Shown: positions 628-26,210 of the stretch, in pieces | Layout: the number at the start of each line of letters is the position of its first letter | How positions within the stretch are numbered: the first letter of the stretch is position 1 | Assembly (NCBI RefSeq): GCF_001747085.1 | Contig: NZ_MDJD01000043.1 | Location: 62,001-126,000 of the forward strand | From: Flavivirga aquatica | GTDB lineage: Bacteria; Bacteroidota; Bacteroidia; Flavobacteriales; Flavobacteriaceae | DNA length: 64,000 nt | Reading direction: 5' to 3' | Position numbers and translations under genes: made by a program | The notes under the pieces: generated by a model | What the model was told of the DNA's origin: nothing | Databases searched by the model: none | The model's input: only the letters and a program-made list of their open reading frames with translations

Positions 628-1107
628 TTATACTTTTGAAATTTGAGGGGCATCTATCCATGTAGCGTAGCCTGGAGCTTTTGCTCCTGGGGGATGAGAG
701 CCAATAGTTGGCCATAGAAGACCTTCTGTATAAGCTATTGCGGATACCACGAAAGTTTCGTCCTTTTCATACGCTCCGTAGGTCTCTCTCCAGATATTGG
801 GAAGTTGATACCAATTACCAATGAACCACATTTTAATAATATTTCTGGTAATTGGCCCTAATTTATCATTACTTAATAATTGAATTCGTATTTGTTTTTC
901 GAGCTCGGTTTCATTGCCATTAGCATTTGTTTTTGCTAAAGTAAAAGCATCTAAAACTTCAACCATATTAGATTCTCCAATAACATCGATAATTGTACTA
1001 TAATAGGCTTCTAATTGGCCTGTTCCTTGTAATTCGTAGGAAGAAAAATCGGTAAGTACAACAGATAAGTCTAAAAAAACATTTAAATTTTCTTGATAAG
1101 TTTCCAT
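628..1107 (-). CDS. small subunit of a GMC-type dehydrogenase (FAD-SLDH / gluconate dehydrogenase subunit 3-like)
   Basis: This 159-residue protein has an N-terminal helix-rich part (FLDLSVVLTDFSSYELQGTG) and a C-terminal W/P/G-rich tail (GLLWPTIGSHPPGAKAPGY). That pattern resembles the small subunits of membrane FAD sorbitol dehydrogenases and FAD glucose dehydrogenases (PF12318 type). In those enzymes the small subunit is needed for maturation or export of the catalytic subunit and usually carries a Tat signal; none is visible here. It lies between the ferritin-like gene (21 bp upstream) and the propeller gene (35 bp downstream), and the GMC flavoprotein heads the same operon, so it is the expected partner. 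The assignment rests on the tail motif, operon context and length. Confidence 0.6.
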   Translation of the reverse strand: METYQENLNVFLDLSVVLTDFSSYELQGTGQLEAYYSTIIDVIGESNMVEVLDAFTLAKTNANGNETELEKQIRIQLLSNDKLGPITRNIIKMWFIGNWYQLPNIWRETYGAYEKDETFVVSAIAYTEGLLWPTIGSHPPGAKAPGYATWIDAPQISKV

Positions 1108-1128
1108 AATAATTAAGCCTTTTTGTGA

Positions 1129-2241
1129 TTATGATATTGCATCAATTTCAAAAGTTGGTGCGCCAGTGTTTTCATTGTCGTCTGAAATAGGATTTCTCAT
1201 TAATTGATAAGACATTTCTTTAATACGAAACATACCTCCAACAGCACTAATGAGTTGATCAGGTTGACCATTTAATGCTATTGTTAATTGTTCCAGAAAG
1301 TTTTTATAGAAGATATTGAAGTCCATAGCAGCAGTTTTTAATTCTGAACCTTCTGGATAATCTGTAATACGTGGATTACTTTGTATAGGATATACAGAAT
1401 CCCAATCTATGGCAAGTGGTCCTCCACTTGGAGCATTTGGCTCGTCCCCTTCGTGGTAATATTGACCAAGTTTTATTTGTTGAAATCTATAATAATGAGA
1501 AAGTTCTCCTTCGTAATCAAAAATACCACCGTCGTGACCTTCTCCTTGTTCAGAAATTAATCGAATTGCAGCTAATGCATCTTCTTCGTTATATATAGGA
1601 ATGATTTCGCCTCCGCCAGAATAATAATATTCTGGTGTTATTTGTTTGCTAGGGTCACCAGTAAATACGTTTTCTTCTCCCAATTCTTGGGTTAGTTTTG
1701 TGATACCATCACCAATTGCTCTATAAAATTCTCCAATACTATAAAAATGTAGCTCATCGCCATCTGCAGATTTAAAAGCTGGAATTAATAATTTTCTAGA
1801 CCTTTTTGTGTTGGTAAGTCCAAAGCTGTGTTTTGAACCTCCTTTTAGGGAATCGGTGGGTAGAGGAGGGCGTTCAATATTTAAAAAAGTATCAATGGTT
1901 TCTTCTGAAAATTTACCTAAACCTACTTTAAAATCGGTTTCTCCATTGGGTAAATATGTAGGGTATGATGGAACAAAGCCTTCTCCTGTAAGGTCAGGAA
2001 TTCCTCCTATAGCATTCATAAGGTTTGCAGCTAAGGTTAAATGGAGCATCTCTTCTACAACAACAACTCGTATTAAATCATAGACATCTTTGTTAGTACC
2101 TGGATGTATAGAATACATAGCTGTAAGATATGGGGGGATAGTTGCATGTTCTAGTTGTATAGCGGTATATAGATAAAATTTTAGATCATCTACTGTTTCT
2201 ATTGGATGTAAATGTTCTGTTTCTACTTGGTGTAATTGCAT
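1129..2241 (-). CDS. ferritin-like domain protein (VioB/RebD-type, PF12902-like)
   Basis: This is a 370-residue protein. Residues 20-80 carry the signature of the ferritin-like domain found in iminophenyl-pyruvate dimer synthases: AIQLEHATIPPYL (E31, H32), then VVVEEMLHLTLAANL (E63, E64, H67) and NAIGGIP. These Glu and His residues could form a di-iron or other metal site in a four-helix bundle. The rest has no domain I recognise. No signal peptide is seen. It starts 14 bp after the GMC flavoprotein and precedes the small subunit by 21 bp, so the three are very likely co-transcribed. A role in oxidative chemistry on the product of the GMC enzyme, or in metal handling, is possible but inferred. 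Confidence 0.75.
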   Translation of the reverse strand: MQLHQVETEHLHPIETVDDLKFYLYTAIQLEHATIPPYLTAMYSIHPGTNKDVYDLIRVVVVEEMLHLTLAANLMNAIGGIPDLTGEGFVPSYPTYLPNGETDFKVGLGKFSEETIDTFLNIERPPLPTDSLKGGSKHSFGLTNTKRSRKLLIPAFKSADGDELHFYSIGEFYRAIGDGITKLTQELGEENVFTGDPSKQITPEYYYSGGGEIIPIYNEEDALAAIRLISEQGEGHDGGIFDYEGELSHYYRFQQIKLGQYYHEGDEPNAPSGGPLAIDWDSVYPIQSNPRITDYPEGSELKTAAMDFNIFYKNFLEQLTIALNGQPDQLISAVGGMFRIKEMSYQLMRNPISDDNENTGAPTFEIDAIS

Positions 2242-2255
2242 TTTATTGTAATGTT

Positions 2256-4199
2256 TTAAAGTTGTTTACTTGTTTGTTTTGAGGCTTGTAATTCTTTCAA
2301 ATCATTAACCATGGCATCAATACTTTTAAAACAAAGAGCTGCCATTGTTAATGTTGTGTTAGATGAGCCTATAGTAGGCATGCTTCCTGCTCCTACAAGG
2401 TATAAGTTTGAGTGATCCCAAGATTTTTGATTAGCATCTACCACGGAATTACTGGGGTCTGTTCCCATGACATGGGTTCCTGCTAGATGGTTTCCTCCTC
2501 TAATGGCATAACCTTCTCCTTTATATTCTACATATCCATAATCTTCGGTGCTGTATGTTGAATAATCTTCGGCTCCTAACCTTTGAAAAATTTGTCTTGA
2601 CATTTGGCGAGCGAAAGCTATTCCTTTCATGGTGTATTCTGGAAGATGCATAGTGACTATTGGTCTTGGATTGCCTAGTCTATCAACGTATTTGGGGTCT
2701 ACAGTTATCCTATTACTAGGTTCTGGCATCATTTCGACCATATTAGCTAGCAAGAGTTGTTTAGAGATTTGGTGGACTAATTCATTACGTAGTTCTTTAC
2801 CGAATTTGTTTTTATTATCTACTATATCTTCGAGATTTGTATTTGGAGAGCCTGTTGCCCAACCCCAACCGTCATTATGTATGTCAACAGCGAAAGCAGC
2901 TTGTTCTTTTCTGAAATCTCCATTTCTAATATCACTGATTCCTGAGGTACAGATAGTGCCTCTTGTTGTTCCTGCTACTTCTGGTAAGAGCGCCCAAGTT
3001 AATATATATGGATGATCCATAAGATTCCGTCCCATAAGATCACTACTACCATTAAGACCAGAAGCTAGCATGAGTCTTGCATTCTCTACAGCATTTGCAG
3101 CAAGGATAAATAAGTTTGCAGTTATGGTACCTGTTGTGTGCTTTTCAGAATTTATATCTTCATAGGATTTATAGACAATAGCAGATACCTTTTGAGTAAC
3201 TGGGTCGATAACAACTCTAGATGCAACAGTTTGTGGTAGAATATCTACCCCTCCATTTTCTAATGCTTTGGCTAGTGTTTTACGAGCATCGTATTTTGCT
3301 TGTACAGGACAAATTGGTGTGCAATTGTTATTCCCTTGGCAGCGTTCTCCTTCTTCTGCTTGGTGTTCACTAACGGCACCAACAGGTTTAAAAAGCTCTC
3401 CATTATTGAATTTTTTATAGTCATTATTGGGTATACCATTTCTTCCTTGTGGAAAAGTGCGTATTTTTAATGTTTTGGTTTCTCCTGCAACATTAATTTC
3501 TGTTCCGTCAAGATCTTTGGCAACGCATTGATCTAAATATGAAGGAGGCATTTCTAGCATAGGGAATACGTAATCATCTTCATATGCTTTTTCATTAGAA
3601 AAAGTTTGAGAAGATACATCACCAGAAACTCCCATTTCAAATTCTGCTTTTCTGTAATAGGGCATTAAGTCTTCATATTCCATGGGCCAATCCAGACCAT
3701 GACCATATCTGGTAAGAATATTGAAATCCTCAGGAAGCATTCTAGGTGTTTTTGATTCGAAATGCATAGTCGTTCCGCCTACTACTCTGGAGTAAGTAAA
3801 ATCACTTATAAAAGGGCCGTTTTGAACCAAATAACTGTCTGTATTTGGTTTTCCTGGTTCAAGTTTTTTTACATCAACGCTTCTTGGCATTGGAGCGTTA
3901 GGATTTCTTTTGTAAGGAGCATTGTTGTCTTTGGATACGGCAGAGTAAAATTGATTTATGTACTTTTCGTAACCCGAGATAGTAAGATCTTTACCTGGAC
4001 CTGCTTCAAGAATAAGGACACTATATCCTTTTTGACTTAATTCTTTTGCAACTATGGATCCACTGATCCCTGAACCTACAATAACAGCATCATATTCTTT
4101 GTTTAATGCGGTTTTGTGGTCTACAACTTTTTGTTTGTGACGCATATTGTATATATGTTGGTTATTAGCTTCATTAAAATTAGTAAGAATTTTCTTCAT
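2256..4199 (-). CDS. GMC-family FAD dehydrogenase with probable iron-sulfur cysteine motif
   Basis: This 647-residue flavoprotein probably oxidises a sugar or polyol hydroxyl. Visible features are the Rossmann FAD motif GSGISGSIVAKEL (residues 42-54) followed by the ribose-binding acidic residue in LILEAG, the GMC motif VVGGTTMHFES (139-149), and the C-terminal catalytic pair H571 (GGNHLAGTHVMG) and N614 (GSSNTTLTMAA). Between them is a C-x5-C-x3-C motif (C287, C293, C297 in GNNNCTPICP). It closely resembles the cysteine cluster of FAD glucose dehydrogenase alpha subunits that binds a [3Fe-4S] centre for direct electron transfer. The start at 4199 has no Tat signal. A tentative hairpin overlaps the leader just upstream. 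It is the first gene of the operon with the ferritin-like and small-subunit genes. It could be glucose, sorbitol or pyranose-2 specific; the substrate is not readable. Confidence 0.85.
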   Translation of the reverse strand: MKKILTNFNEANNQHIYNMRHKQKVVDHKTALNKEYDAVIVGSGISGSIVAKELSQKGYSVLILEAGPGKDLTISGYEKYINQFYSAVSKDNNAPYKRNPNAPMPRSVDVKKLEPGKPNTDSYLVQNGPFISDFTYSRVVGGTTMHFESKTPRMLPEDFNILTRYGHGLDWPMEYEDLMPYYRKAEFEMGVSGDVSSQTFSNEKAYEDDYVFPMLEMPPSYLDQCVAKDLDGTEINVAGETKTLKIRTFPQGRNGIPNNDYKKFNNGELFKPVGAVSEHQAEEGERCQGNNNCTPICPVQAKYDARKTLAKALENGGVDILPQTVASRVVIDPVTQKVSAIVYKSYEDINSEKHTTGTITANLFILAANAVENARLMLASGLNGSSDLMGRNLMDHPYILTWALLPEVAGTTRGTICTSGISDIRNGDFRKEQAAFAVDIHNDGWGWATGSPNTNLEDIVDNKNKFGKELRNELVHQISKQLLLANMVEMMPEPSNRITVDPKYVDRLGNPRPIVTMHLPEYTMKGIAFARQMSRQIFQRLGAEDYSTYSTEDYGYVEYKGEGYAIRGGNHLAGTHVMGTDPSNSVVDANQKSWDHSNLYLVGAGSMPTIGSSNTTLTMAALCFKSIDAMVNDLKELQASKQTSKQL

Positions 4200-4202
4200 A
4201 AC

Positions 4203-4238
4203 AAGAAGAAAATTCTTTTTAATGTATTGAATTCTTCT
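4203..4238 (-). promoter_or_regulatory. inverted repeat in the leader of the GMC operon
   Basis: AAGAAGAA (4203-4210) is complementary to TTCTTCTT (4231-4238), with partial AATTC pairing inside the stem. The repeat ends 3 bp from the GMC start codon, so in the mRNA it would form a hairpin directly before the AUG. It could control translation, but AT-rich sequence makes such repeats fairly common. Confidence 0.3.
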
Positions 4239-4731
4239 TAATTAGTGAATAATTAAAATTGGGTATTTATAAATGAATATTTGACGGGGTTTTTGATAAA
4301 TTTTTGAAAAAAATTAAAAGGAGAGGGGTATGTCTTAATTTCAGAAGATGAAATTAAGAGCTGGCTAGACTTTACTTTTAAAAATGAAATTTTAAGGACA
4401 TCGTCTGTTTTTATTAGGACAGATTACTGATAAAGAATTTTGATGTTTACCTAGTAATATTAATAATTTGAAAGTAAGTACTTTACTACATTAATTTGTG
4501 CTGTGGGTACATTTACAGGAAATGTTTTTGAGTTGAGAGGTTTAGTAAGTATATGGAATACTGAAAAATTCGCTAATATTTATTTTTACTCTAATACTTT
4601 ATATAAATATTGAAGTATGATTTTTCCTAGAGGATATAAGGTGAAATGTTGTTCCTTAACAAAAAAGCTTTTTTATTTTTAAATTCTGTGATTGATAGGC
4701 TTTGCTGTATCATATTAAATTCATAATCTAC
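4239..4731. other. non-coding stretch upstream of the GMC operon
   Basis: No convincing gene is seen. The stretch contains a perfect 9-bp inverted repeat, CTTAATTTC (4334-4342) and GAAATTAAG (4350-4358), with a 7-base loop, and a self-complementary AAAAAAGCTTTTTT near 4662-4675 that may help stop transcription from the TPR gene ending at 4732. A clear TAnnTTTG element for the GMC operon was not found. Confidence 0.4.
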
Positions 4732-5586
4732 TTATAAACCGTTCTTAGATAATAGTTTTTTCAAAACCTTTTTAGCCTTGCTATAATTATAGTTTTTTTC
4801 ATCTTTGAGAATTAACATTAATTGTTCTTTAGCTTTCGGGGTATTCGATTTTTTAATATATAATAGAGCTTTATACCAATACGCTCTAGAATAATCAATA
4901 GTGCTACTTTGTTCTAATTGGTCAAAATATTTTAATGCCTCTTGATAATTTCCTAGTTCTAAATGTGAAATTCCCGTGTAAGAAACAACATATGGGTGAG
5001 TTTTAAAATTGCCAAGATTTTTTTGTTGCTCTAAAAATTGGATAAAGATGGAAATAGCATCATCATATTTTTGATCTTCAAATAATAATTCTCCTTTAGA
5101 CAATAATAGGTTTGTATGGCCTTGTACAATTAAAGAAGGAAGTGCATCCCAATCCTTATAATCATTATATAAATTCTGAGGTTCTTGGTTTCCTGTAAAT
5201 CTAATAGTTAAAAAAATAAGCAGTACGGCAGCGACTATACTTGCATAGTAAACTAGCTTATTTTTTATCGTCTTTTGTTTTGGGTCTGTTCTTTCAAAAT
5301 ATTGTTTGGCAGATTCTTCAATGGTTTTTTTAGCTTCAATAAATTCTGAACTATTGCGATATAATTTAATTTTAGAAACCTCTTCTTTTTCATATATATC
5401 AGGATTTATTTCTCTTTCTATATCATTGCTTATAGCTGATTTGAGTAACTTATTAATAGCGACTTCTTTTTTTAGCAAATCATTTGATTTCATCTTTTCT
5501 TCAAAAAGGAGTATATCATTTTTACCCATTACTCCTCGTAGATAATCATCTATCTGGTTATATGTTTCTTCGTTAAATTCCATCAT
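4732..5586 (-). CDS. membrane TPR protein, probable anti-sigma factor of the adjacent ECF sigma
   Basis: This is a 284-residue protein. The N-terminal cytoplasmic part (IDDYLRGVMGKNDILLFEEK) looks like the start of many Bacteroidota anti-sigma factors, which have a Y.ldG.l...E...FE pattern. A single membrane helix follows at about residues 111-130 (LVYYASIVAAVLLIFLTI). A C-terminal tetratricopeptide region then includes GELLFEDQKYDDAISIF and GNYQEALKYFDQLE and should lie in the periplasm. Its start overlaps the sigma factor stop by 14 bp (ATGATGG against the NNDGI stop), the usual translational coupling of sigma/anti-sigma pairs. The anti-sigma role is inferred from order, topology and N-terminal pattern; zinc-binding HxxxCxxC is absent. 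Periplasmic TPRs could sense an envelope ligand or be cut by the neighbouring proteases. Confidence 0.65.
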   Translation of the reverse strand: MMEFNEETYNQIDDYLRGVMGKNDILLFEEKMKSNDLLKKEVAINKLLKSAISNDIEREINPDIYEKEEVSKIKLYRNSSEFIEAKKTIEESAKQYFERTDPKQKTIKNKLVYYASIVAAVLLIFLTIRFTGNQEPQNLYNDYKDWDALPSLIVQGHTNLLLSKGELLFEDQKYDDAISIFIQFLEQQKNLGNFKTHPYVVSYTGISHLELGNYQEALKYFDQLEQSSTIDYSRAYWYKALLYIKKSNTPKAKEQLMLILKDEKNYNYSKAKKVLKKLLSKNGL

Positions 5587-6145
5587 TATTCGTCTTTATC
5601 TTATTAAATCGTGCATCGGATTTTATTATTTTTAAAAGTTTCCTTCTGCATTTAAAAATTCTTTGTCTGGCGGTATTTATATTGGCATATAATAACTCTT
5701 TTATTATGTCTTCATAGGAAACATCATTAAAAAAAAGAGAAAGAATCTCTTTGCAATTTTCAGACAAGAGATTAAACTTTTCCCTATATAATTCCATTTG
5801 TTCTTGCTCTAACATAAATATTGCAAAATTTACTTCTTTATCTACTAGTGTTTCTACTCGCTGATTCATTACCCTTTTTTTTTGTAGTTCTAGCTCTCTT
5901 CTCCACATATTTCTACTAATTGTAAATAAATAGGCTTCAAAACAGATGATTTTTAATCTTCTTTGTCGAACTCCTACTATAATATATAATAATGATTCTT
6001 GAAAAATGTCTTTAGCCTGATCTAGAGTCCCTTGATTTTGACTAACAAACTTCAATGTTTTCGGAAAAAAACGTTCATATATTTCAGAAATAATCTTATT
6101 ATCTTGTTCTAACAAAGCACTTATAAATTGCTCACTCGTATTCAT
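5573..6145 (-). CDS. ECF-type RNA polymerase sigma factor
   Basis: The frame is open up to 6301, but the N-terminal 52 residues are low-complexity Y/F-rich. The likely start is the ATG at 6145 (MNTSEQFISALLEQDN), giving 190 residues. Region 2 is visible as IYERFFPKTLKFVSQNQGT followed by AKDIFQESLLYI, and region 4 as LSENCKEILSLFFNDVSYED with the helix-turn-helix ending in RIFKCRRKLLKII. This is the usual length and order of an extracytoplasmic-function sigma factor. It is divergent from the lipoprotein subtilisin and overlaps the putative anti-sigma gene by 14 bp. A TAnnTTTG element lies at 6190-6197 and a perfect palindrome at 6167-6180, between that element and the start codon. Confidence 0.88.
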   Translation of the reverse strand: MNTSEQFISALLEQDNKIISEIYERFFPKTLKFVSQNQGTLDQAKDIFQESLLYIIVGVRQRRLKIICFEAYLFTISRNMWRRELELQKKRVMNQRVETLVDKEVNFAIFMLEQEQMELYREKFNLLSENCKEILSLFFNDVSYEDIIKELLYANINTARQRIFKCRRKLLKIIKSDARFNKIKTNNDGI

Positions 6146-6166
6146 TGATTTTTCGATGGTGTTATA

Positions 6167-6180
6167 ATACACATGTGTAT
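6167..6180. promoter_or_regulatory. 14-bp perfect palindrome, candidate operator for the sigma gene
   Basis: ATACACATGTGTAT is a perfect palindrome. It lies 9 bp downstream of the TAGATTTG element (on the minus strand) and 21 bp upstream of the sigma factor ATG, roughly where transcription would start. Binding by a dimeric repressor there would block the sigma promoter. Confidence 0.4.
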
Positions 6181-6189
6181 ATATGCTTA

Positions 6190-6197
6190 CAAATCTA
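6190..6197 (-). promoter_or_regulatory. -7 element TAGATTTG of the ECF sigma gene
   Basis: Read on the minus strand the sequence is TAGATTTG, an exact match to the Bacteroidota TAnnTTTG consensus, 44 bp upstream of the chosen start at 6145. No clear -33 TTTG is visible. Its position supports a start downstream of it rather than at 6301. Confidence 0.4.
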
Positions 6198-6329
6198 AAA
6201 AAATATAAGTGCGAAAAATATAAATAATAAGACAGTTTTTTCTTTAGTTCGTAAAATTGACATATAGAATTTGGGTAATAAATAATTAATTTATATACCA
6301 TTATATAAATAATATTAAAACCTGTTTAT

Positions 6330-7589
6330 ATGAAAAGTATTAAATTCTTTGTTAAACTTATTACGTTATTCTTTTTTATTATAAGTTGTAGTGAGGGTGA
6401 AGATGATCAAATTTTTTTAAAAAAAGAGGTATCTTCTTCAAAAGCTGTTTATGCAAAGGGAAAGAGTATAAAGTATCCAGAAAAATTAGATAATGAGCTA
6501 ATTATAGCATATAAAAAAGATATAGCAGAAGCGTATAAAAAATCTTTAAGAGTAAAATACGAGATAACTAGTTACAAAACATGTAATTGTAATAATACGC
6601 GTATAGAAAAATGGGTGTTCCCATCTGGAATTGATGTTGAAGGAAGAAAAGATGATATTGTGCAAGAAGGTGGTGTAGAAGGGGTAGATTATCAGTTTAT
6701 TTATCCTAATCAAAATACAACACCATCTAATACTATCATTAATCAATCAAATCGATTTATAGCTTCTTTTATCAAGCCTATTGGAGAGAGACTTGTGACG
6801 GTAGCAATAATAGATACAGGGATTAATCTTACATCATTAGGGCAAATACAACCTTTTTTATACAACAATACTCCTAATATGTCTTCATGTATTAAAGAGG
6901 TATCAGGATGGGATTTTGTAAATCATGATAATAATATATTTGATGATAATGGTCATGGAACTATTGTGACTAATATTATTATGAATAAACTAAAAAATGA
7001 AGGTATTGATAATTATCAAATACTCCCTGTAAAAGCGTTTAACAAATTTGGAGTGGGGACCACCTTTGATATTCTATGTAGTTATTTATATGTGATTAGC
7101 AAACCTGAAGTTTCTATTATTAATATGAGTTTTGGTTGGTACAAACACCCTAGTGACTTGCTTTCTATATTTATTTTAGAAAATTCACAAATCTTGCATC
7201 TTACTTCTGCAGGAAATGATGATAATAATAATGATGATTTGGAGCATTTTCCGTCATCAATTATTCATGAAAATATACTCTCTATAGGAAGTTATTATAA
7301 GAGTAATAATGATATAGTTAAATCTAAATTCTCTAATTATGGTAAATGTAGTGTTGATTTTTTATCGAATGGAGATCGTATTCCTTTTTATAACCATGCT
7401 ACTAATACTACTTATTTTGTAAGTGGGACATCTTATGCAACTCCATATGTGACAGCTTATGCTATGAAGTATTTTTTAAAGGGGCATAAAACCCCATCAC
7501 AGATACTTAATCAATTAGCTATTAATACTCGGGTTTTTAATTCGACGAATTTATTTCCAGTGGTATATAAAAATAGAATTATAAAATAG
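6330..7589 (+). CDS. lipoprotein S8 (subtilisin-type) serine protease
   Basis: This 419-residue protein has a lipoprotein signal peptide ending in FIISC (lipid-modified C20), so it is predicted to be anchored in the envelope. The subtilisin triad is complete: D162 in VTVAIIDTG, H209 in DDNGHGTIV and S368 in VSGTSYATP, with oxyanion N296 in TSAGND. A 130-residue N-terminal region with CNCNN and IEKWVFPSG precedes the catalytic domain and may act as a propeptide or inhibitor. It is divergent from the sigma/anti-sigma pair and followed after 108 bp by the TPR-CHAT protease in the same direction. Its pairing with CHAT suggests that one protease activates the other or that both act on one substrate. 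This is inference. Confidence 0.88.
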   Translation: MKSIKFFVKLITLFFFIISCSEGEDDQIFLKKEVSSSKAVYAKGKSIKYPEKLDNELIIAYKKDIAEAYKKSLRVKYEITSYKTCNCNNTRIEKWVFPSGIDVEGRKDDIVQEGGVEGVDYQFIYPNQNTTPSNTIINQSNRFIASFIKPIGERLVTVAIIDTGINLTSLGQIQPFLYNNTPNMSSCIKEVSGWDFVNHDNNIFDDNGHGTIVTNIIMNKLKNEGIDNYQILPVKAFNKFGVGTTFDILCSYLYVISKPEVSIINMSFGWYKHPSDLLSIFILENSQILHLTSAGNDDNNNDDLEHFPSSIIHENILSIGSYYKSNNDIVKSKFSNYGKCSVDFLSNGDRIPFYNHATNTTYFVSGTSYATPYVTAYAMKYFLKGHKTPSQILNQLAINTRVFNSTNLFPVVYKNRIIK

Positions 7590-7697
7590 TTTGTATGCAT
7601 ATGTTTTTAAGAAAAGTTATTTTAAACGATCTATGAATAGCTTTTTTAACTCCTATTAAAAGTTATACTTTTAGGTGGTCTCTAAGAATCATTTATA

Positions 7698-10475
7698 ATG
7701 AACAAAAGTTTAAACCTACAGCCAAAATTCTATTTTATTTTTGGTTTTTATTGTCTATTATTTTATTCCGGAAATGCACAAACCTTTAAATATTCTATAA
7801 AGGAGCGTTACGAGAAAATAGAAAAATCTATTGAATTATACTCGACTAAAATTAAAGAAATTAACAAACTTCTGGAATTAGAAAAATCAAGTATTGATAG
7901 TGTCCAGCTAAGTCATATCTATAGTTCTTATAGCAAACTAAATTATAAAAATAAAGATTATAAAAATGCTATTATTAATGGTTGTAAAGCCATTGAAATC
8001 CAAAAAGAATTTATTGATTCTTTGCCTCAATTAGTTAATAATACTTACCACAATCTTGCGTATTACTACGCCTCTTCTGGAGATAAAACCAATGCTATTA
8101 AATCTTTTGAAACCTTGATAAATCAACCTTTTAAGGGTAAATTTACGGTTAAAGCCTATACGGAAGGTTTGGCTCAGTTGTTTATCGAAAGAGGAGATTA
8201 TTACAAGTTGTTGGATTATTTGCGAGAAGCAGAATACATGATCATTAAACGAAATAATATAAGGCTCAATAAAGAACTGTACCGTGTCTATTTAAGTATT
8301 TCTGGAGTATATTCTAAAATTAATGAAACGGAAGACTACTATAAAGCTATCGAGTATCTAAAAAAAACTGAAAAAATAATAACCCATCTATCTGGTCAAG
8401 AATTAATAAAAACTAAAATCATTATTTACAACCGGTATGGTAGTATTTATGACGAATTAAAGGACTTTGATAAAGCCATCTGTCATTATAATAAAGCCTT
8501 GTATTTAAGCTTGAATTTAGAAAAAAGTGATTCTTTAAACATTGCAAAAATATACAATAATTTAGGGTACATACACATGCATGGCTACAAGCCTGAAATT
8601 GCATATAAATATTATCAAAAAGCGTTAGAATATGCTCCTTTTCATGCATCAGTATTTGATAATCTGGGAGATTATTTTTTACAGCAAAAAAAATATGTTC
8701 AAGCTTTAACGCACTATCAAAAAGCTATTAATTATAATATAGATTCAGACGCAAGTATTGACTACAAAAAACTGCCGTCCATTGAAGTTTTTCTCTCTTC
8801 AATAAATAAAATTGATTTAGTTAATGATTTAAAAGATAAAGCCAATGCTTGGTTACAGTTCTATCTCAAAACTAAAAACAAAGAATATTTAAAACATGCA
8901 CTAGCTACGACACAAAGAGCAGACGAACTAATCGATATTATTCGCTTTGAAAGCTATGAACAACAATCTAAGTTTTTTTGGCGTAAAAAGGGAGTCGATT
9001 TATATATTTTGGCTACAGCTATTTGCTATCATCTTAATGAATCTGAAAAAGCTTTTTATTTTATGGAAAAAAGCAAATCCTTATCATTACTCGAAAATCT
9101 GAATCATGAAGAAGCTAAAAAACTAGGCGGATTATCAGATACATTACAAGAACAAGAATATTCGATAAAGCATGATGTATTATTTGCTAGTCAAAAAATA
9201 CTAACTGACACTTTTACAAAAGAAGACAGGCGATCATTAATTTTTAGAAAAAAAAGGAAGTACGAGGAGTTCTTGAAATCTCTAGAAAAGGATTATCCTA
9301 GTTATTACAATTATAAAAAAGAAGTTAATCTAATCTCTTATAAAGAAGCTCAACAAAAAATTAAAGAAAGTAATATCTCTATGGTTCAATATATCCTCTC
9401 TGAAAACGAAGGATATGGCATGTACATGTCATTTAACACAAGCCACTTATTCCGAGTCCCTAATGTTGCAATTTTACAAAAAGAAATACGAACTCTAAAT
9501 AAACTTTTACATGAGCCCTTATTCTCTATCGAAGATCAGAATACATATAAAATAGTATCATTTAGTATATTTAAAAAATTATTCCCTTTTATAGAAGATC
9601 CTAAGGTGTATAAGAACAACAAAATGGTTATTATTCCAGATCATAAACTCCAGTATGTCCCGTTTGAAACTTTAGTGACTAGTCTTGATTCTATGACTCT
9701 TGAAGATAATAACCTTATTAATTATTTAGAAATTAGTTACCTTTATTCAATGTCATTATCCAAGAACATTGATGAGGTAGATCGATTTCCTTCTAAAAAT
9801 TTTATTGGTTTTGCTCCCATACATTTCAAGAAACATGAGCTTGTTGATTTAAAATTGAGCGAAAAAAAAATGATGAAAATCCGATCTTTATTTAATGGCA
9901 ATATGCTTACAGAAAAAAAGGCCTCCAAAAGCAATTTTATAAAAATATCAAGCGCCTACAAGACAATCCATTTATCTACACATGCTAATTCCATGAGTGA
10001 TCAAGATCCTTGGATCGCTTTTTATGATGAAAAATTATATCTCAATGAATTATACTTTATCAAAAACCAAGCAGAATTAGTCGTTTTGGATGCTTGTAAA
10101 ACGGGGATTGGGGTATTACGGGCAGGAGAAGGAATTATGAGTATTAATAGAGGTTTTTTTCATGCAGGCACCAAAAGTGTAGTTTCTTCACTATGGAATA
10201 CCAATGAGAAATCCAGCAATGAAATTATCCTTAATTTTTATAGTTATTTAAAAAAAGGGATATCTAAATCTTCGGCATTACGTAGAGCTAAGCTTGACTA
10301 TATGCGAAATCATCAAGGTTCGGAAACATCACCTTTTTTTTGGGGAGCTTTAGTGTTACATGGTAATACAGATTCAATACAGCTATCTGTCAATACTCAA
10401 ACGTCTTTATGGATATACATTCTTGTTGTTGGATTATTACTATTGGGAATAGCGTATATGAAAAAGAAACTTTGA
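7698..10475 (+). CDS. exported TPR-CHAT (caspase/separase-like) protease with C-terminal membrane anchor
   Basis: This 925-residue protein has an N-terminal signal peptide (about residues 1-28, ending in SGNAQ). TPR repeats follow between about residues 100 and 380, for example YNRYGSIYDELKDFDKAICH, YNNLGYIHMHGYKPEIA and FDNLGDYFLQQKKYVQALTH. A helical spacer leads to a C-terminal CHAT domain with the cysteine-protease dyad H762 (IHLSTHAN) and C800 (VLDACKTGIG), then the family motifs GEGIMSINRGFFHAGTKSVV, SLWNTNEKSS and PFFWGALVLHG. A membrane helix near residues 904-921 (YILVVGLLLLGIAYM) ends in KKKL. The topology puts both TPR and CHAT outside the cytoplasm, unlike defence CHAT proteins such as the CRISPR-linked one. 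It sits downstream of the subtilisin and the sigma/anti-sigma pair. Confidence 0.88.
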   Translation: MNKSLNLQPKFYFIFGFYCLLFYSGNAQTFKYSIKERYEKIEKSIELYSTKIKEINKLLELEKSSIDSVQLSHIYSSYSKLNYKNKDYKNAIINGCKAIEIQKEFIDSLPQLVNNTYHNLAYYYASSGDKTNAIKSFETLINQPFKGKFTVKAYTEGLAQLFIERGDYYKLLDYLREAEYMIIKRNNIRLNKELYRVYLSISGVYSKINETEDYYKAIEYLKKTEKIITHLSGQELIKTKIIIYNRYGSIYDELKDFDKAICHYNKALYLSLNLEKSDSLNIAKIYNNLGYIHMHGYKPEIAYKYYQKALEYAPFHASVFDNLGDYFLQQKKYVQALTHYQKAINYNIDSDASIDYKKLPSIEVFLSSINKIDLVNDLKDKANAWLQFYLKTKNKEYLKHALATTQRADELIDIIRFESYEQQSKFFWRKKGVDLYILATAICYHLNESEKAFYFMEKSKSLSLLENLNHEEAKKLGGLSDTLQEQEYSIKHDVLFASQKILTDTFTKEDRRSLIFRKKRKYEEFLKSLEKDYPSYYNYKKEVNLISYKEAQQKIKESNISMVQYILSENEGYGMYMSFNTSHLFRVPNVAILQKEIRTLNKLLHEPLFSIEDQNTYKIVSFSIFKKLFPFIEDPKVYKNNKMVIIPDHKLQYVPFETLVTSLDSMTLEDNNLINYLEISYLYSMSLSKNIDEVDRFPSKNFIGFAPIHFKKHELVDLKLSEKKMMKIRSLFNGNMLTEKKASKSNFIKISSAYKTIHLSTHANSMSDQDPWIAFYDEKLYLNELYFIKNQAELVVLDACKTGIGVLRAGEGIMSINRGFFHAGTKSVVSSLWNTNEKSSNEIILNFYSYLKKGISKSSALRRAKLDYMRNHQGSETSPFFWGALVLHGNTDSIQLSVNTQTSLWIYILVVGLLLLGIAYMKKKL

Positions 10476-10526
10476 ATAAGGTGTGCTTTTCTTGGGTGTA
10501 CAGCAAATTTCTCTTAAATAAGGTTT

Positions 10527-10623
10527 GGGCGTGACCACAAGGGTCAGGCTATCCGTTACAATTCCTCGCACTTCGCTTAAAAAAAAGCTCAGGCTGTGGG
10601 ATTTTCACTGCTATCCTTCACGC
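10527..10623 (+). repeat. structured dispersed repeat, copy A
   Basis: A 97-bp element starts with GGGCGTGACC, then GGCTATCCGTTACAATTC, and ends with GGGATTTTCACTGCTATCC and CACGC. A second copy lies at 44936-45019 on the other strand. The ends pair (GCGTGA with TCACGC), a small hairpin forms at ACC/GGT and another at GGAT/ATCC. It lies just after the CHAT gene. Similar G+C-rich elements are familiar between genes of Flavobacteriaceae; their function is not known to me. Confidence 0.7.
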
Positions 10624-10696
10624 TGAAACGATACATGAAAAAATGGGATAAAAAGAGAAAGTTGTCGTTTCTTCTGTAAGTGTTTTTGTTAGAAAT

Positions 10697-10740
10697 AAAA
10701 AAAGCCTATCCTTTTTATATCTAGGATAAGCTTTATTTTT
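10697..10740. terminator. bidirectional terminator between CHAT and T9SS cargo genes
   Basis: AAAAAGCCTATCC (10699-10711) pairs with GGATAAGCTTT (10724-10734), with an A-run before and a T-run after. It serves the convergent gene ends at 10475 and 10761. Confidence 0.75.
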
Positions 10741-10760
10741 ACTCGGAGATATTATCCGTT

Positions 10761-12101
10761 CTAAAAAAATATTTTCTGTATTTTTTGTTGAGTTCCATTA
10801 GATATTTTAACAAAATATAACCCTTTTGGGTATTTTGATAAATCAAGTTCAGATTGGTCGCTATTTATAGTTTTATTATCAATAAATTTTCCGTGATTAT
10901 TGTACACCTGAATCTTTTTGTTACCTTCTATACCTGTTACGTTTATATTGAATATACCCGTATTACTTGGGTTAGGGAATATGTCCACATTAAGTAAATC
11001 TGTTTTGGATTTACTTATCTCTTTTAGTGAATTACTAATATTATTGATGAAATTACATGGACCATAAGAAACATTAATCGAGGGAGTAGAGATTGGATTG
11101 GACCATGGGGCACATCCATTTCGGATCTGTAATGAGACTCTAATGCTTTTAACAGTGCTTGTTCCATAAAGATTTCCTGAGCCAAAATCTGGACGAACTT
11201 CATTCATTTCAAAACCTGTTTCCGAAGTTCGGTTACCATAAGATGAATTAAAATAGTAGCGTTCAATGGTCCATTTATACTCTGCTCCAGAGAAAAGGGG
11301 AGCCTTAAATACGTTAGATTTACCAGGGCAATATTTCGTTGGTTCTGTTATGTTTAGATTACTTATGTTAGGTGTAGATGCTGATGCAGGAGTTATCACT
11401 TTAGAATATGTAAGCCCATTTCCGCAAAGGTTATTAACTGGTGTAACAAAAATAGTTATAGGATCTGTACCAGAATACGCTTGTGGTACCTCAATCCATC
11501 CTGTGTTTATGGTTGAAGGCAGTGGTGTTGGAGAGGGTATTCCTCCAAAACTAATGTTCCAAATATAGCTGCTATGAGTACTAGAACCATGTAATGCTGT
11601 AAATTTTACTAATTCTGTCTTGCAAAAAGATCCTATAGATGTAATAGCGGTAATTGGAATAGCGCCGCGAATGACTTTAAAATCCCGTACACTCCAAGAT
11701 CCTCTTTGTCTAATAGTACCAAGCTTAGGTGAATAACTACAATTATAAATAACTGCTATTTTAAATTTAACCGCTTTAAATTCATTTATTGTGAACGTTT
11801 TGTATGATTGTGCAGCCTGTGTAATCTTTCCTTGCCCCATTATGTTTCCTTGTGCATCTAGTAATAGCCATTGGTAAGCGTAAAATTTGTAAGAATTATT
11901 AGGAGTCCAACTAAATGTAAATGTATTTTGGTTACTTAAACACATTATGCTCGATCCAGATAAACCATTTATACCAGGAGGGTTACAAGCGAGTATATTG
12001 TTCTCAATGTTCATTTTTAATGGAGGTTCGATATTTTTACTCAAGACTGTAAAAGAAATACAGGTAAAAAGAATTGTAAAAAGTAGTTTGTTTGTTTTCA
12101 T
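10761..12101 (-). CDS. secreted T9SS cargo protein with C-terminal sorting domain
   Basis: This 446-residue protein has a signal peptide (KLLFTILFTCISFTVLS) and a type A T9SS sorting domain over the last 75 residues (VDIFPNPSNTGIFNINVTG, then IQVYNNHGKFI, LDLSKYPKGLYFVKIS and the basic end KIQKIFF). The middle is made of PKD/Ig-like beta-sandwich stretches without a recognisable enzyme. It should be exported through the outer membrane by the type IX system and attached to the surface. Its leader region (12129-12217) can fold into a multi-helix structure. It is divergent from another T9SS cargo gene. The function is unknown, possibly adhesion. Confidence 0.85.
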   Translation of the reverse strand: MKTNKLLFTILFTCISFTVLSKNIEPPLKMNIENNILACNPPGINGLSGSSIMCLSNQNTFTFSWTPNNSYKFYAYQWLLLDAQGNIMGQGKITQAAQSYKTFTINEFKAVKFKIAVIYNCSYSPKLGTIRQRGSWSVRDFKVIRGAIPITAITSIGSFCKTELVKFTALHGSSTHSSYIWNISFGGIPSPTPLPSTINTGWIEVPQAYSGTDPITIFVTPVNNLCGNGLTYSKVITPASASTPNISNLNITEPTKYCPGKSNVFKAPLFSGAEYKWTIERYYFNSSYGNRTSETGFEMNEVRPDFGSGNLYGTSTVKSIRVSLQIRNGCAPWSNPISTPSINVSYGPCNFINNISNSLKEISKSKTDLLNVDIFPNPSNTGIFNINVTGIEGNKKIQVYNNHGKFIDNKTINSDQSELDLSKYPKGLYFVKISNGTQQKIQKIFF

Positions 12102-12128: not shown

Positions 12129-12217
12129 CTATTAAAAGGCTTTTCGGTTTCCGCCTCTTTAGTAGCTTTATACTAAAGGGGGGTGAAATTTTTTTTATTA
12201 CCCAGTTTTTTTAATAG
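12129..12217 (-). promoter_or_regulatory. multi-helix leader structure upstream of the T9SS cargo gene
   Basis: On the transcript of the minus-strand gene, an outer stem (CTATTAAAA with TTTTAATAG, 9 bp; arms at 12129-12137 and 12209-12217) encloses three possible hairpins: GGGT/ACCC, an 8-bp perfect CTTTAGTA/TACTAAAG stem extended by two or three pairs, and GGC/GCC. The structure ends 27 bases before the ATG at 12101. Its layout resembles a cis-regulatory RNA, but I do not match it to a named riboswitch class. Confidence 0.5.
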
Positions 12218-12438: not shown

Positions 12439-13437
12439 ATGAGAAAAACTTACTTTACTTTAATGATGGTGTTTGCTTTTGCTATAACTGCAAGTGCTCA
12501 GTTTTATTCAACAGATTTTAACAGTACAGATTTTCCGGCAGGAGACCCTGTAGGTAATAATGCAGATTGGAATAGTGACCCTTCTTGGGTAGGGAACGCT
12601 AATAACCAAATAAGACATGACAGAGCTAATTGGAAAAGAGCAGTATTAGATAGGGCTATTACAGCAAGTGATGGAGACTTTATATCCGCAAAAATGACGG
12701 TTGTATTTGGAAGAGATGGTCAAAATTTAGGTACTACAGCTGTAAATAATGGTTTAGTCTTTTTTGGATTTAAAAGTAATAATAATTTAACTAATTTTCA
12801 TGATAGAGAAGGTATTAGAGTAGTATATGATGGATCTGATTTTGTTATCAGTTCTCAATCTGATACAACTACACAGCCTAATAATGCAAATGGAAATGGA
12901 GCGAATGGTAGTGCGCCATTTTCTACTCCTATAACAGTTGCAGCAAACGTAAATACAGAGTATGAGTTTACCATTGAAATTGCAGTTAAATCAAGTGCAG
13001 CAACTTCTACTTTAAGTGCTAAAATAGATGGGAGTGCTGTTTCTACAACTACTGGTATTGATCCTGAATTGTATGCAGGAATAACAGGGAGTGGAATATA
13101 TTTCTGGACTTGGGGTTATCAAATGTTATCCCATGGAGATATTGACGCGATATTTATAAATAGTCTTACTGTAGATAATAGTGCTACTACACTATCAACA
13201 AGAAAAGCCAATGCTTTTGAATTTGGTATGTATCCTAACCCAACAAGTAATGTATTAAATATTAATACTAAAGAAGTTTTAGAAAAGGTAGAAATAATTG
13301 ATTTATTAGGAAAAACGGTATTGTCAGTTAGAAATGTTAAAGATCAATTAAATGTATCTTCTATAAATAAAGGGCTTTATATTATAAAGTTAAGATCTCC
13401 AAAAGGAATCTCAACTAAGAAGTTTGTTAAAGAATAA
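12439..13437 (+). CDS. secreted T9SS cargo protein, probable jelly-roll/lectin-like fold
   Basis: This is a 332-residue protein with a clear signal peptide (TYFTLMMVFAFAITASAQ, cut after Ala-Gln). A single beta-rich domain of about 220 residues follows, rich in G/N/T/S and with short repeats of the type FYSTDFNSTDFP. The C-terminal type A sorting domain begins at FGMYPNPTSNVLNINTK and ends in STKKFVKE. The middle resembles LamG/concanavalin-like sandwich domains in composition only; no catalytic motif was found. It is followed by two tandem terminators and so is probably monocistronic. Confidence 0.85.
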   Translation: MRKTYFTLMMVFAFAITASAQFYSTDFNSTDFPAGDPVGNNADWNSDPSWVGNANNQIRHDRANWKRAVLDRAITASDGDFISAKMTVVFGRDGQNLGTTAVNNGLVFFGFKSNNNLTNFHDREGIRVVYDGSDFVISSQSDTTTQPNNANGNGANGSAPFSTPITVAANVNTEYEFTIEIAVKSSAATSTLSAKIDGSAVSTTTGIDPELYAGITGSGIYFWTWGYQMLSHGDIDAIFINSLTVDNSATTLSTRKANAFEFGMYPNPTSNVLNINTKEVLEKVEIIDLLGKTVLSVRNVKDQLNVSSINKGLYIIKLRSPKGISTKKFVKE

Positions 13438-22837: not shown

Positions 22838-23293
22838 ATGCTAACTTGGAAAGAAGTTATAAGCTTTTCCGTAAAAGGGAATCCAACTCCAGACAAACGA
22901 GTTGAAAAGACAGAAGTAGAATGGCGTACTCAATTAACTTCAGAGCAATTTAGAATTACAAGACAAAAAGGAACAGAACGACCACATAGTGGAGCGCTTT
23001 GTAGAACCCACGATGAAGGAAAGTATAATTGTGTATGTTGTGATGCGGCATTGTTCGACTCTACAATTAAATTTAGTTCAGGTACAGGATGGCCCAGTTT
23101 TACGCAACCTATTAAAGAAAATGCAATTAAGTACGAAAGAGACACAGCTTTTGGTATGGTACGTGTTGAGGTAATGTGTAATACATGTGATGCCCATTTA
23201 GGACATGTATTTCCAGATGGACCAAAACCAAGCGGATTACGGTATTGTATTAACTCAGAATCTATGGTTATAGAAAGAGGTGCAGATGAATAA
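22838..23293 (+). CDS. msrB: peptide methionine-(R)-S-oxide reductase MsrB
   Basis: This 151-residue enzyme reduces the R-form of methionine sulfoxide in proteins. The zinc site is complete (C65-x2-C68 and C114-x2-C117), the substrate loop is SGTGWPSF, and the catalytic cysteine is C137 in GLRYCINS, with a likely resolving cysteine C55. There is no signal peptide, so it is cytoplasmic. It is the first gene of an eight-gene redox-repair operon and overlaps msrA by 14 bp. Confidence 0.95.
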   Translation: MLTWKEVISFSVKGNPTPDKRVEKTEVEWRTQLTSEQFRITRQKGTERPHSGALCRTHDEGKYNCVCCDAALFDSTIKFSSGTGWPSFTQPIKENAIKYERDTAFGMVRVEVMCNTCDAHLGHVFPDGPKPSGLRYCINSESMVIERGADE

Positions 23294-23825
23294 TGAAAAT
23301 TTACAATTAGCCACTTTTGGAGGCGGCTGTTTTTGGTGTACAGAAGCTGTATTCCAAGAAGTAAAAGGGGTCGAAAAAATAGTATCTGGATACTCTGGAG
23401 GAACTGTTCCTGGACATCCAACCTATAGAGAGATATGTTCTGGATTAACAGGACATGCAGAGGTTGTACAGGTGACTTTTGATTCAAGTGTGATTTCGTA
23501 TCAAGATATTTTAATCATTTTTATGACAACGCATGATCCTACAACTTTAAACAAGCAAGGCGCAGATCGAGGTACGCAATACCGCTCGGTAATATATTAT
23601 CACGATACTGCTCAAAAAGAAATAGCAGAAGTGGTGTTAAAAGAAGTCGCTCCATATTATGAAAACGCTATAGTTACTGAAATTACAGCGTTAGATGTTT
23701 TTTATAAAGCAGAAGAAGAACATCAGGATTATTACAGGAATAACGAAACACAAGGCTATTGCAGTTTTGTTATAACACCTAAATTGGTTAAACTACGTGA
23801 GCTCCATGCGGATAAGTTAAAGTAG
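23280..23825 (+). CDS. msrA: peptide methionine-(S)-S-oxide reductase MsrA
   Basis: This is a 181-residue enzyme (or 179 from the ATG at 23286). The hallmark FGGGCFWCTEAVFQ holds the catalytic cysteine. DPTTLNKQGADRGTQYRSVI and the AEEEHQDYY motif that anchors the substrate are intact. It reduces the S-form of methionine sulfoxide, complementing MsrB. Its start overlaps the msrB stop by 14 bp, which points to translational coupling. Confidence 0.96.
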   Translation: MQMNNENLQLATFGGGCFWCTEAVFQEVKGVEKIVSGYSGGTVPGHPTYREICSGLTGHAEVVQVTFDSSVISYQDILIIFMTTHDPTTLNKQGADRGTQYRSVIYYHDTAQKEIAEVVLKEVAPYYENAIVTEITALDVFYKAEEEHQDYYRNNETQGYCSFVITPKLVKLRELHADKLK

Positions 23826-23831
23826 TATCAA

Positions 23832-24353
23832 ATGAAAATTAAATTTAAAGATAGAAATAGCTATATGTCAAACCAATTGGAACATATAAATGTATTTAAT
23901 GCGCCAGAGTTTAATGTAAATCAATGGATTGATGCAGAGGGGAATAAAACAGAATCAATAAAACTATCAGATTTTAAAGGGAAGTTTAAGGTGGTGTATT
24001 GTTTTCAAAGTTGGTGTCCAGGGTGTCATAGTAAAGGCTTACCAGATTTAAAAAAAATGGTAGAAGCATTAAAAGGCAACGATAATGTTGAGTTTTTAGC
24101 CATACAAACTGTTTTTGAAGGTCATGAAGAGAATACTTATGAGAAAATAATAGAGACTCAAAAGCAATACGACTTAAAAATACCTTTTGGACATGATGCA
24201 GGAGACGATGGAAAATCGATATCGAATGTTATGAGAAATTATCAAACAGGCGGGACACCATGGTTTCTATTTATTGATAAAAAAGATAATGTTGTGTTTT
24301 CAGATTTTCATTTAAATCCAGATGCAGCCATTGAATTATTAAAAACGATGTAG
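23832..24353 (+). CDS. thioredoxin-like (TlpA/AhpC-TSA type) protein
   Basis: This is a 173-residue protein, or 162 if translation starts at the internal ATG at 23865 (MSNQLEHINVFNAPEF), which suits the fold better. The redox motif is SWCPGC, preceded by FKVVYCFQ, and the cis-proline loop is TGGTPWFLFID. There is no signal peptide or lipobox, so it probably acts in the cytoplasm, perhaps as electron donor to the methionine sulfoxide reductases beside it. That partnership is inferred from the operon. Confidence 0.85.
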   Translation: MKIKFKDRNSYMSNQLEHINVFNAPEFNVNQWIDAEGNKTESIKLSDFKGKFKVVYCFQSWCPGCHSKGLPDLKKMVEALKGNDNVEFLAIQTVFEGHEENTYEKIIETQKQYDLKIPFGHDAGDDGKSISNVMRNYQTGGTPWFLFIDKKDNVVFSDFHLNPDAAIELLKTM

Positions 24354-24356
24354 TTT

Positions 24357-24617
24357 ATGAAACCAAAGGTTAACATAAAGCTTTATGGAGCCGAAAGATG
24401 TCATAAAACACAATACTATAAAACATTTTTAGAAACACGTGATTTAGATTACGTGTTTTTGGATGTTGAAGTTAATGATGATTATGCTGAAAAATTAAGG
24501 CAGCTTTATGATAATGGAAAACTAAACTTTCCAACAATAACCATTGGAGGTAAACGATTAAGAAATCCGTCTGATAAAGATTTAGGGAAATGGTTAAGCA
24601 AATTAACAACAAGCTGA
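24357..24617 (+). CDS. glutaredoxin-like protein
   Basis: This 86-residue protein has the size of a small glutaredoxin. The active site is a single cysteine in GAERCHKTQYY (C-x2-T, monothiol arrangement) and the cis-proline glutathione loop is NFPTITIGG. It starts 3 bp after the thioredoxin-like gene and precedes selO. In E. coli a glutaredoxin is a known AMPylation target of SelO, so the adjacency is suggestive. Confidence 0.8.
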   Translation: MKPKVNIKLYGAERCHKTQYYKTFLETRDLDYVFLDVEVNDDYAEKLRQLYDNGKLNFPTITIGGKRLRNPSDKDLGKWLSKLTTS

Positions 24618-24640
24618 TTGTTGTTTAAGAAATGTAATAT

Positions 24641-26203: not shown

Positions 26204-26210
26204 TTATAAA

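Follow-up and report, generated by a model that had tools for sequence, protein, structure and literature searches.

Genetic composition of the island

We analyzed a stretch of 64,000 nucleotides from the genome of Flavivirga aquatica (contig NZ_MDJD01000043.1, positions 62,001 to 126,000), here referred to as the window, and within it an island of four genes at window positions 4732-10475. The island belongs to a widespread type of module, of which it is one copy. The core of this module comprises a probable extracytoplasmic function (ECF) sigma factor, a candidate tetratricopeptide repeat (TPR) anti-sigma factor with a single membrane pass and a TPR-CHAT protease predicted to be exported and membrane-anchored. 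Two divergent operons are separated by 184 bp. The minus strand carries the anti-sigma-like TPR protein and the sigma factor, the plus strand a subtilisin followed by the TPR-CHAT. All four genes described in the initial annotation were confirmed by open reading frames (ORFs) and profile matches, and the subtilisin triad and the CHAT His-Cys dyad were complete and intact, respectively. The features are listed below in amino acid (aa) and window coordinates; TM stands for transmembrane and AF2 for AlphaFold2.

4732..5586, minus strand: candidate TPR anti-sigma factor, 284 aa, with a helical N-terminal cytoplasmic part, one TM helix and an outer TPR part
5119..5124, minus strand: codons of Q155-G156, the predicted CHAT cleavage point (P1-P1'), from covariation and the motif LY..Y....LPSLxx[R]G
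5197..5265, minus strand: TM helix of the anti-sigma factor, residues about 108-130 (AF2 model)
5573..6145, minus strand: ECF-type sigma factor, 190 aa, its ORF open to 6301 and its reading frame overlapping that of the anti-sigma factor by 14 bp
6272..6301, plus strand: ECF-like promoter TGGGTAAT-N16-TACCAT, facing the subtilisin-CHAT operon and conserved in relatives
6330..7589, plus strand: S8 subtilisin lipoprotein (cargo, PF00082) with the triad D162/H209/S368 read from the sequence
6480..6704, plus strand: subtilisin prodomain, residues 51-125, beta-alpha-beta-beta-alpha-beta (model); it stands alone as a lipoprotein in other modules
7698..10475, plus strand: TPR-CHAT cysteine protease of 925 aa, with predicted export and a predicted membrane anchor at its C-terminus
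9867..9869, plus strand: CHAT K724, a position assigned to the S1 pocket by prediction and occupied by E in each of the 138 Arg-type modules
9981..9983, plus strand: catalytic His762 of CHAT
10095..10097, plus strand: catalytic Cys800 of CHAT; position 798, two residues earlier, is a predicted S1 position
10206..10208, plus strand: CHAT E837 within SSLWNTNE, the predicted P1-recognising residue (covariation)
10404..10460, plus strand: C-terminal TM helix of CHAT

The sigma factor probably starts at 6145 rather than at 6301. Its best model was TIGR02937 (2.4e-9, 37.0 bits, curated cut-off 42.9), and Pfam Sigma70_r2 gave 18.4 bits with a cut-off of 24. The protein thus shows clear similarity to ECF sigma factors by profile, though formally below threshold. 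The AF2 model of the anti-sigma factor (mean predicted local distance difference test score, pLDDT, 86.8) placed helices 6-17, 22-34 and 36-52 before the TM helix and TPR helices from residue 160 onward, and TPR-type proteins made up the 50 Foldseek matches listed. A TM helix was present in 125 of 127 anti-sigma factors, all 125 with an excess of K/R on its N side. The TPR part is accordingly predicted on the outer face of the inner membrane, the topology calls of this study being simple hydropathy rules made for the analysis. From gene order, topology and model we infer that the sigma factor is held by the anti-sigma factor.

The CHAT of the window matched PF12770 with 6.7e-39 (134.5 bits, cut-off 24). 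It has a signal-like N-terminus and a C-terminal TM helix followed by KKK. Among 136 CHATs, 135 had the C-terminal TM helix, 131 a positive tail and 119 an N-terminal hydrophobic segment as well. H762 and C800 were kept in all 186 CHATs that could be paired with an anti-sigma factor. The CHAT domain is predicted to lie on the outer face of the inner membrane, anchored by the C-terminal helix. The suggestion that all non-cytoplasmic parts share one compartment therefore agrees with the predicted topology of CHAT and of the anti-sigma TPR part; the placement of the subtilisin is unproven. A search of the CHAT profile against solved structures gave four matches at E<=10, none labelled Csx29 and none labelled separase. 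One of them was 8rot ("CHAT domain-containing protein", 1.3e-05), which we take to be a gasdermin-system protein.

Some loci carried more than one TPR-CHAT gene. Two or three of them were consecutive or nearly so in L150, L166, L169 and L086, and in L150 and L166 each was preceded by a small gene of its own. In locus L106, the two TPR-CHAT genes present both encode Leu where residue 837 would stand, and neither a sigma nor an anti-sigma factor was found in their vicinity.

Distribution of the module

CHAT relatives were found at E<=1e-30 in 124 of 299 sampled genomes of the family Flavobacteriaceae and at E<=1e-20 in 82 of 198 genomes of a phylum sample. The first 60 regions fetched comprised the 40 best CHAT matches and 20 from further down the list; 40 regions from outside the family were hand-picked from the match list. 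Some loci belong to the same organism; exact duplicates were dropped before the tree of 135 CHATs and the set of 186 pairs were built, near-duplicates were kept.

Of 62 loci spanning about 18 kb around CHAT, 57 gave a profile match to the sigma factor, and 57 gave one to the anti-sigma factor. The sigma factor lay within five genes of CHAT in 71, and the anti-sigma factor in 70, of 77 loci taken from named genomes, some of these loci being truncated by contig ends. These loci came from Aquimarina, Kordia, Tenacibaculum, Flavobacterium, Lacinutrix, Maribacter, Zobellia and others, a few from outside the family. All three components were found in 50 of 60 further loci. Among loci from outside the family, both sigma and anti-sigma factor were detected in 13 of 20 belonging to the same class, but by these profiles in only 2 of 20 from other classes.

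We also analyzed 30 whole genomes chosen for close CHAT relatives, so that the counts test pairing in these genomes and not prevalence. They contained 68 anti-sigma factors of this family and 77 CHATs, with up to nine modules per genome. Nearly every anti-sigma factor (67/68) was located within 15 kb of a CHAT, and 68 of the 77 CHATs within 15 kb of an anti-sigma factor; the expectation for random placement is about 2% for a 22-kb span. The conserved neighbourhood on which the initial annotation depended was thus recovered, with the sigma/TPR pair as the dedicated partner of the exported CHAT. Plain sigma-anti-sigma-CHAT operons without subtilisin were present within the family (L082, L088) as well as in other families (L212, L214, L217).

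The genome of the window carries a second module on another contig (L003, C7:177000-196000, positions 2785-11383). Here the order is anti-sigma factor, sigma factor, lipoprotein, a PKD/DUF7619/DUF7849 protein, TPR-CHAT, a retropepsin-like aspartyl protease (PF13650, 1.1e-12) and a LuxR-type response regulator. Genes of similar size and order were found, wholly or partly, in L092-L095.

Covariation of the anti-sigma linker with the CHAT active site

A shared sequence of the anti-sigma factors, LY..Y....LPSLxx[R]G, links the TM helix to the TPR part, and its bracketed position is residue 155. Among 124 anti-sigma factors this residue was R in 88, K in 23 and Q in 13, the window having Q155. Together with CHAT residue 837 it formed the pairs R-D (88), K-E (22), Q-E (11), Q-Q (2) and K-D (1), which is the strongest covariation among all pairs of an anti-sigma and a CHAT C-terminal residue. 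This covariation between residue 155 of the anti-sigma linker and residues of the CHAT active site is the new observation of our study.

A larger set comprised 186 module pairs from more families, with the anti-sigma factor required to be next to a profile-recognised sigma factor. In this set 155 x 837 ranked first of 95,580 pairs at two sequence weightings and second at the strictest. A binary correlation was calculated for 157,896 column pairs whose minority state occurred in no fewer than 10 rows, with sigma x CHAT pairs as control. The pair 155 x 837 came first (0.944), 155 x 724 second (0.802) and 155 x 798 fifth (0.737), the best sigma x CHAT control reaching 0.762. We took 23 of the 405 CHAT columns, those near H762, C800 and the 833-841 loop, as the active site, and six of the eight CHAT columns most strongly linked to residue 155 belonged to this set. 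Averaged over 236 anti-sigma columns the number was 0.38, the next column had 5 and sigma columns at most 3, a comparison that is descriptive since the 23 columns were drawn up after the rank of 155 x 837 was known.

All 138 Arg-type modules had E724 and D837, and in the plain alignment D837 was present in 4 of the 48 modules without R. When the P1 residue was read from a profile omitting position 155, R occurred with D in 137 modules and without D in none; another residue occurred with D in 5 and without D in 44. The residue following Arg was G in 88 and S in 35 of the 138 modules. Fifteen genomes contained both types, and here P1 and pocket matched in 46 of 47 modules, compared with a mean of 25.7 after shuffling within genomes (0 of 20,000 shuffles as high). 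About three lineages, by our reading of the tree, have moved away from the R/D pair: the K/Q modules of the subtilisin branch including the window, an M group (L214, L263, L302 and kin) and L227. Independent contrasts all pointed in the same direction or showed no difference.

Residues D462 of MALT1 and Q161 of caspase-3, both clan CD enzymes, reportedly lie two residues before the Cys. The literature places the reading of P1 in this clan at helix alpha1 (MALT1 D365, E917 in a separase model), at the end of beta4 (the two residues just mentioned) and in loop L5 or just after it (MALT1 E500, caspase-3 R207, D1082 in the separase model) (PMC4626109, PMC4357240). Judged by sequence position, CHAT 724, 798 and 837 appear to occupy these places. 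Since 837, 724 and 798 are among the best partners of residue 155, it is probably read by the S1 pocket. The residue of separase that reads P1 Arg is given as D2151, with K670 in its place in the TPR-CHAT of Craspase (PMC9729208). The equivalence of CHAT 837 and D2151 is based on the place in the SLWxxND loop and not on superposition. We take SLWxxND to be a separase motif.

Subtilisin and the cargo slot

The subtilisin of the window matched PF00082 with 1.2e-27 (97.4 bits, cut-off 21.8) and has a lipobox with Cys20. Its model (pLDDT 86.3) consists of the prodomain and the subtilisin body. Plasmodium SUB1 was the first Foldseek match, and all 50 matches listed were subtilases and their kin, pro-subtilisins included.

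The gene just before CHAT was counted along the tree of 135 CHATs if the gap was under 500 bases. A full subtilisin was found in 59 of the 135, all inside one branch of 70 rows (support 93). The remaining slots held 17 prodomain-like small proteins, 35 other small proteins and 7 larger ones, and 17 had none. Outside the family, one locus (L219) also had a subtilisin before CHAT. The subtilisin is therefore cargo, mainly the passenger of one branch, with small lipoproteins or nothing elsewhere, and the initial description of the island as in essence a two-protease system does not carry over to the many modules of the latter kind.

A profile built only from subtilisin prodomains, with signal peptides removed, picked up 12 of the 59 small proteins in the slot at E<=1e-3 and 18 after iteration. 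Controls gave 1 match among up to 841 other small proteins and 1 among 590 shuffles. The matching proteins of L057, L062, L068, L074, L143, L149, L155, L156, L162, L164, L165 and L168 are about 125-150 aa long, mostly with a lipobox and without a protease domain, and are located in the slot before CHAT. Because the prodomain stands alone in some modules, usually as a lipoprotein, it is suggested to be the part that the system keeps, rather than the protease.

A published consensus for surface-export signals (PMC5080379) was applied to the residues after the lipobox Cys. At least two acidic residues followed the Cys in 29 of 48 lipobox subtilisins and in 98 of 232 other lipobox proteins. The acidic stretch resembles export signals and the enrichment is weak, which makes surface export of the subtilisin suggestive only.

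Promoter-like element

Of 73 divergent regions preceding the cargo-CHAT operon, 52 contained a GGGTAAY element, compared with 4 of 53 non-divergent cargo upstreams and 1 of 126 regions facing the sigma factor. Most sites (34/56) begin 50-75 bases before the start codon. By eye, close relatives of the window have YACYAT or nearly so 16 bases after GGGTAAY, and other subtypes have sequences such as GAAC in its place. We infer that the sigma factor uses this element. Before other genes of the loci it was present in 85 of 1242 cases on the forward and 30 of 1242 on the reverse strand, an excess on the forward strand which raises the possibility that the promoter also serves other genes around the modules.

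A link between the promoter motif of the sigma factor and the protease genes, raised in the initial annotation, holds in so far as the element recurs before the subtilisin-CHAT operon. A genome-wide regulon defined by the motif was rejected, as neither strict nor relaxed matches rose above a reversed-pattern control, and therefore no regulon can be named. A copy with two mismatches is located at window positions 12175-12204 (minus strand), before the PF18962 protein of 10761-12101; genome-wide such copies are at chance level.

Proposed mechanism and alternative explanations

We consider it probable that the island is an envelope switch in which CHAT acts as a dedicated site-1 protease and cuts the anti-sigma factor after residue 155. 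The ECF sigma factor would be held at the inner membrane by the single-pass TPR anti-sigma factor. A signal might be sensed by the TPR repeats of CHAT itself and/or by the neighbouring lipoprotein. The exported and anchored CHAT would then cut the anti-sigma factor between the TM helix and the TPR part (Q155-G156 here), and the remaining stub would be cleared by the general M50 site-2 protease. The genome has one PF02163 gene for such a protease, located away from the island; since it is present in all 14 control genomes too, it is uninformative alone. The freed sigma factor would transcribe the lipoprotein-CHAT operon from the GGGTAAY promoter, giving positive feedback, and the subtilisin may serve as output or sensor in this branch. 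Cross-talk between several modules in one genome would be prevented by the match between cut-site residue and protease pocket within each. The suggested proteolysis of the anti-sigma factor followed by sigma release, one of the cascades considered in the initial annotation, thereby gains specific support from the covariation of the linker residue with the CHAT active site.

For the Bacteroidota as a whole we lean slightly towards a widespread class of modules with CHAT as the private site-1 protease, in which matched keys insulate the modules from each other and lipoproteins, some of them on the subtilisin-prodomain fold, are interchangeable sensors that activate CHAT. The keys, proposed with the same slight preference, would be R with E724 and D837, K or Q with E837, and M with E837.

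Several observations weigh against the proposed switch. The P1/S1 pair has switched in few lineages, about three as read from the tree with 4-6 changes counted, and a sign test on independent pairs was unable to reach 0.05. Modules are inherited as units, so the shuffle within genomes is not free of descent; the covariation is partly descent as well, sigma x CHAT pairs reaching z 9.0. The expected cytoplasmic interface of sigma and anti-sigma factor was recovered in none of the 30 best sigma x anti-sigma pairs by mutual information, and column 86 of the anti-sigma factor, which is cytoplasmic, also has 5 active-site partners. The signal was weaker in the 66 subtilisin-type modules alone (z 8.1, with the S8 x CHAT background reaching 7.0), and there column 155 was not among the best 8 by active-site partners. 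Exceptions with D837 are L067 (K), L219 (H), L262 and L303, which have an Arg close beside the position and not at it, and L268, which has R in the plain alignment and L in a shifted reading. The window itself is of a derived type (Q155, K724, D798, E837), and its specificity is therefore the least certain. Nine of 77 CHATs had no anti-sigma factor nearby, and 35 of 42 CHATs without one, some at contig ends, keep E724 and D837, for which reason CHAT may have further roles. Genome-wide, the strict promoter motif gave 2 matches (one in the island) versus 3 in the control, and 185 versus 192 with two mismatches. It is the few switches, the weaker signal in subtilisin-type modules and the unrecovered sigma/anti-sigma contact that keep our confidence at the level of probable.

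The covariation suggests that CHAT and the anti-sigma factor are direct partners, whether the linker loop is a substrate or an inhibitor. A juxtamembrane loop that acts as a pseudosubstrate and keeps CHAT off, until release or loss of the anti-sigma factor frees it for other targets, is nevertheless unlikely in our view. The loop lies just outside the TM helix, where other anti-sigma factors take their site-1 cuts, and Arg followed by a small residue suits cleavage. It counts against the proposed switch, on the other hand, that covariation indicates contact with the active site and not turnover, so that an inhibitor loop leaves the same trace. Precedents are a loop of the gingipain prodomain, an Arg of which occupies the S1 pocket so positioned that cleavage is disfavoured (PMC4357240), and separase, which is held inactive in its complex with securin (PMC9729208). 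We regard it as rather more doubtful that CHAT and subtilisin are only outputs of the sigma factor, for envelope proteolysis, defence or self-destruction, with the anti-sigma factor under control of another protease. The promoter-like motif faces the cargo-CHAT operon as such a role would have it, and the PADLOC model BovA has matches in 10 of the 17 CHAT domains aligned for the family (alignment A5, best 1.6e-09), not including that of the window, which also speaks against the switch. Neither the near one-to-one pairing of anti-sigma factor with CHAT, which extends over subtypes that differ in cargo or lack it, nor the match of P1 and S1 is expected for a mere regulon member. Very improbable, finally, is a cascade in which CHAT activates the subtilisin as the actual site-1 protease. 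The two genes are adjacent in one operon and the subtilisin-linked CHATs all fall into one branch of the tree, but 65 of the 135 CHATs are found elsewhere in the tree, next to different cargo or to no cargo at all. No subtilisin column obeys the R/D rule, and the two-protease cascade was rejected for this reason.

If the proposed switch is correct, a large family of exported CHAT proteases would acquire a function together with a substrate and a cleavage position, and the logic of Craspase would have an envelope counterpart common in environmental bacteria. Naturally orthogonal protease/substrate/sigma modules would be available, and one or two residue changes per side should redirect their specificity.

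Comparison with known systems

No description of such a module was found in the open-access literature among the best matches listed. A close likeness exists with the type III-E CRISPR system Craspase (Csx29, Csx30, CASP-sigma), in which, according to PMC10028731, an ECF sigma factor is held by an inhibitor and a TPR-CHAT cleaves this inhibitor. Craspase is RNA-guided and bound to Cas7-11, whereas the CHAT of the module is predicted to be exported and membrane-anchored and its inhibitor is a TM TPR protein. A cytoplasmic TPR-CHAT as in Craspase does not agree with the N-terminal signal-like segment together with the C-terminal TM helix found in 119 of 136 CHATs, the search for cas genes in the window being confined to the four proteins. 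In RseA-DegS-RseP and RsiW a shared serine or membrane protease makes the site-1 cut, whereas a clan CD cysteine protease per sigma/anti-sigma pair is proposed for the module. Both have in common the stepwise destruction of a membrane anti-sigma factor that frees an ECF sigma factor (PMC10028731). The module is thus predicted to work like Craspase and like RseA/DegS control, yet to stand outside Craspase by its export and membrane binding.

FecI/FecR/FecA systems likewise provide many copies of an ECF sigma factor and a membrane anti-sigma factor per genome; there the partner is a TonB-dependent receptor, in the module a protease and a lipoprotein. Separase resembles the module CHAT in belonging to clan CD, in its His-Cys dyad and in an acidic residue that reads P1 Arg (PMC4626109, PMC9729208), but it is eukaryotic and cuts cohesin. 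The EACC2-caspase conflict systems also combine a caspase domain, an ECF sigma factor and a TPR (DUF1822) protein in one neighbourhood; as described in PMC8195603 they carry EACC2 and TRADD-N parts, whereas the module has an exported CHAT and a TM anti-sigma factor.

Defence models and neighbouring genes

For the four proteins of the window PADLOC gave only subtilase/IetS models for the subtilisin (best 9.8e-07) and none for the other three. The flanks were scanned in eight close relatives (seven Aquimarina contigs and one of Flavobacteriaceae), covering 48 of 78 proteins. Ten PADLOC models were each matched by one of the 48 proteins, and the 25 Pfam families listed were mainly metabolic. A defence island was rejected for these flanks, no defence model being matched by more than one protein. 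In view of the BovA matches of the CHAT domains mentioned above, some CHATs may nonetheless have a defence or self-destruct role.

Beside the island, a GMC oxidoreductase, a ferritin-like PF12902 protein and a small protein are encoded at window positions 628-4199 (minus strand). On the other side, the genes at 10761-12101 (minus strand) and 12439-13437 (plus strand) both encode proteins with sorting tails for type IX secretion (PF18962). Further downstream, at 22838-26720 (plus strand), a row of genes resembles MsrB, MsrA, a thiol-disulfide protein, SelO and a second MsrA-like protein, named from their translations alone.

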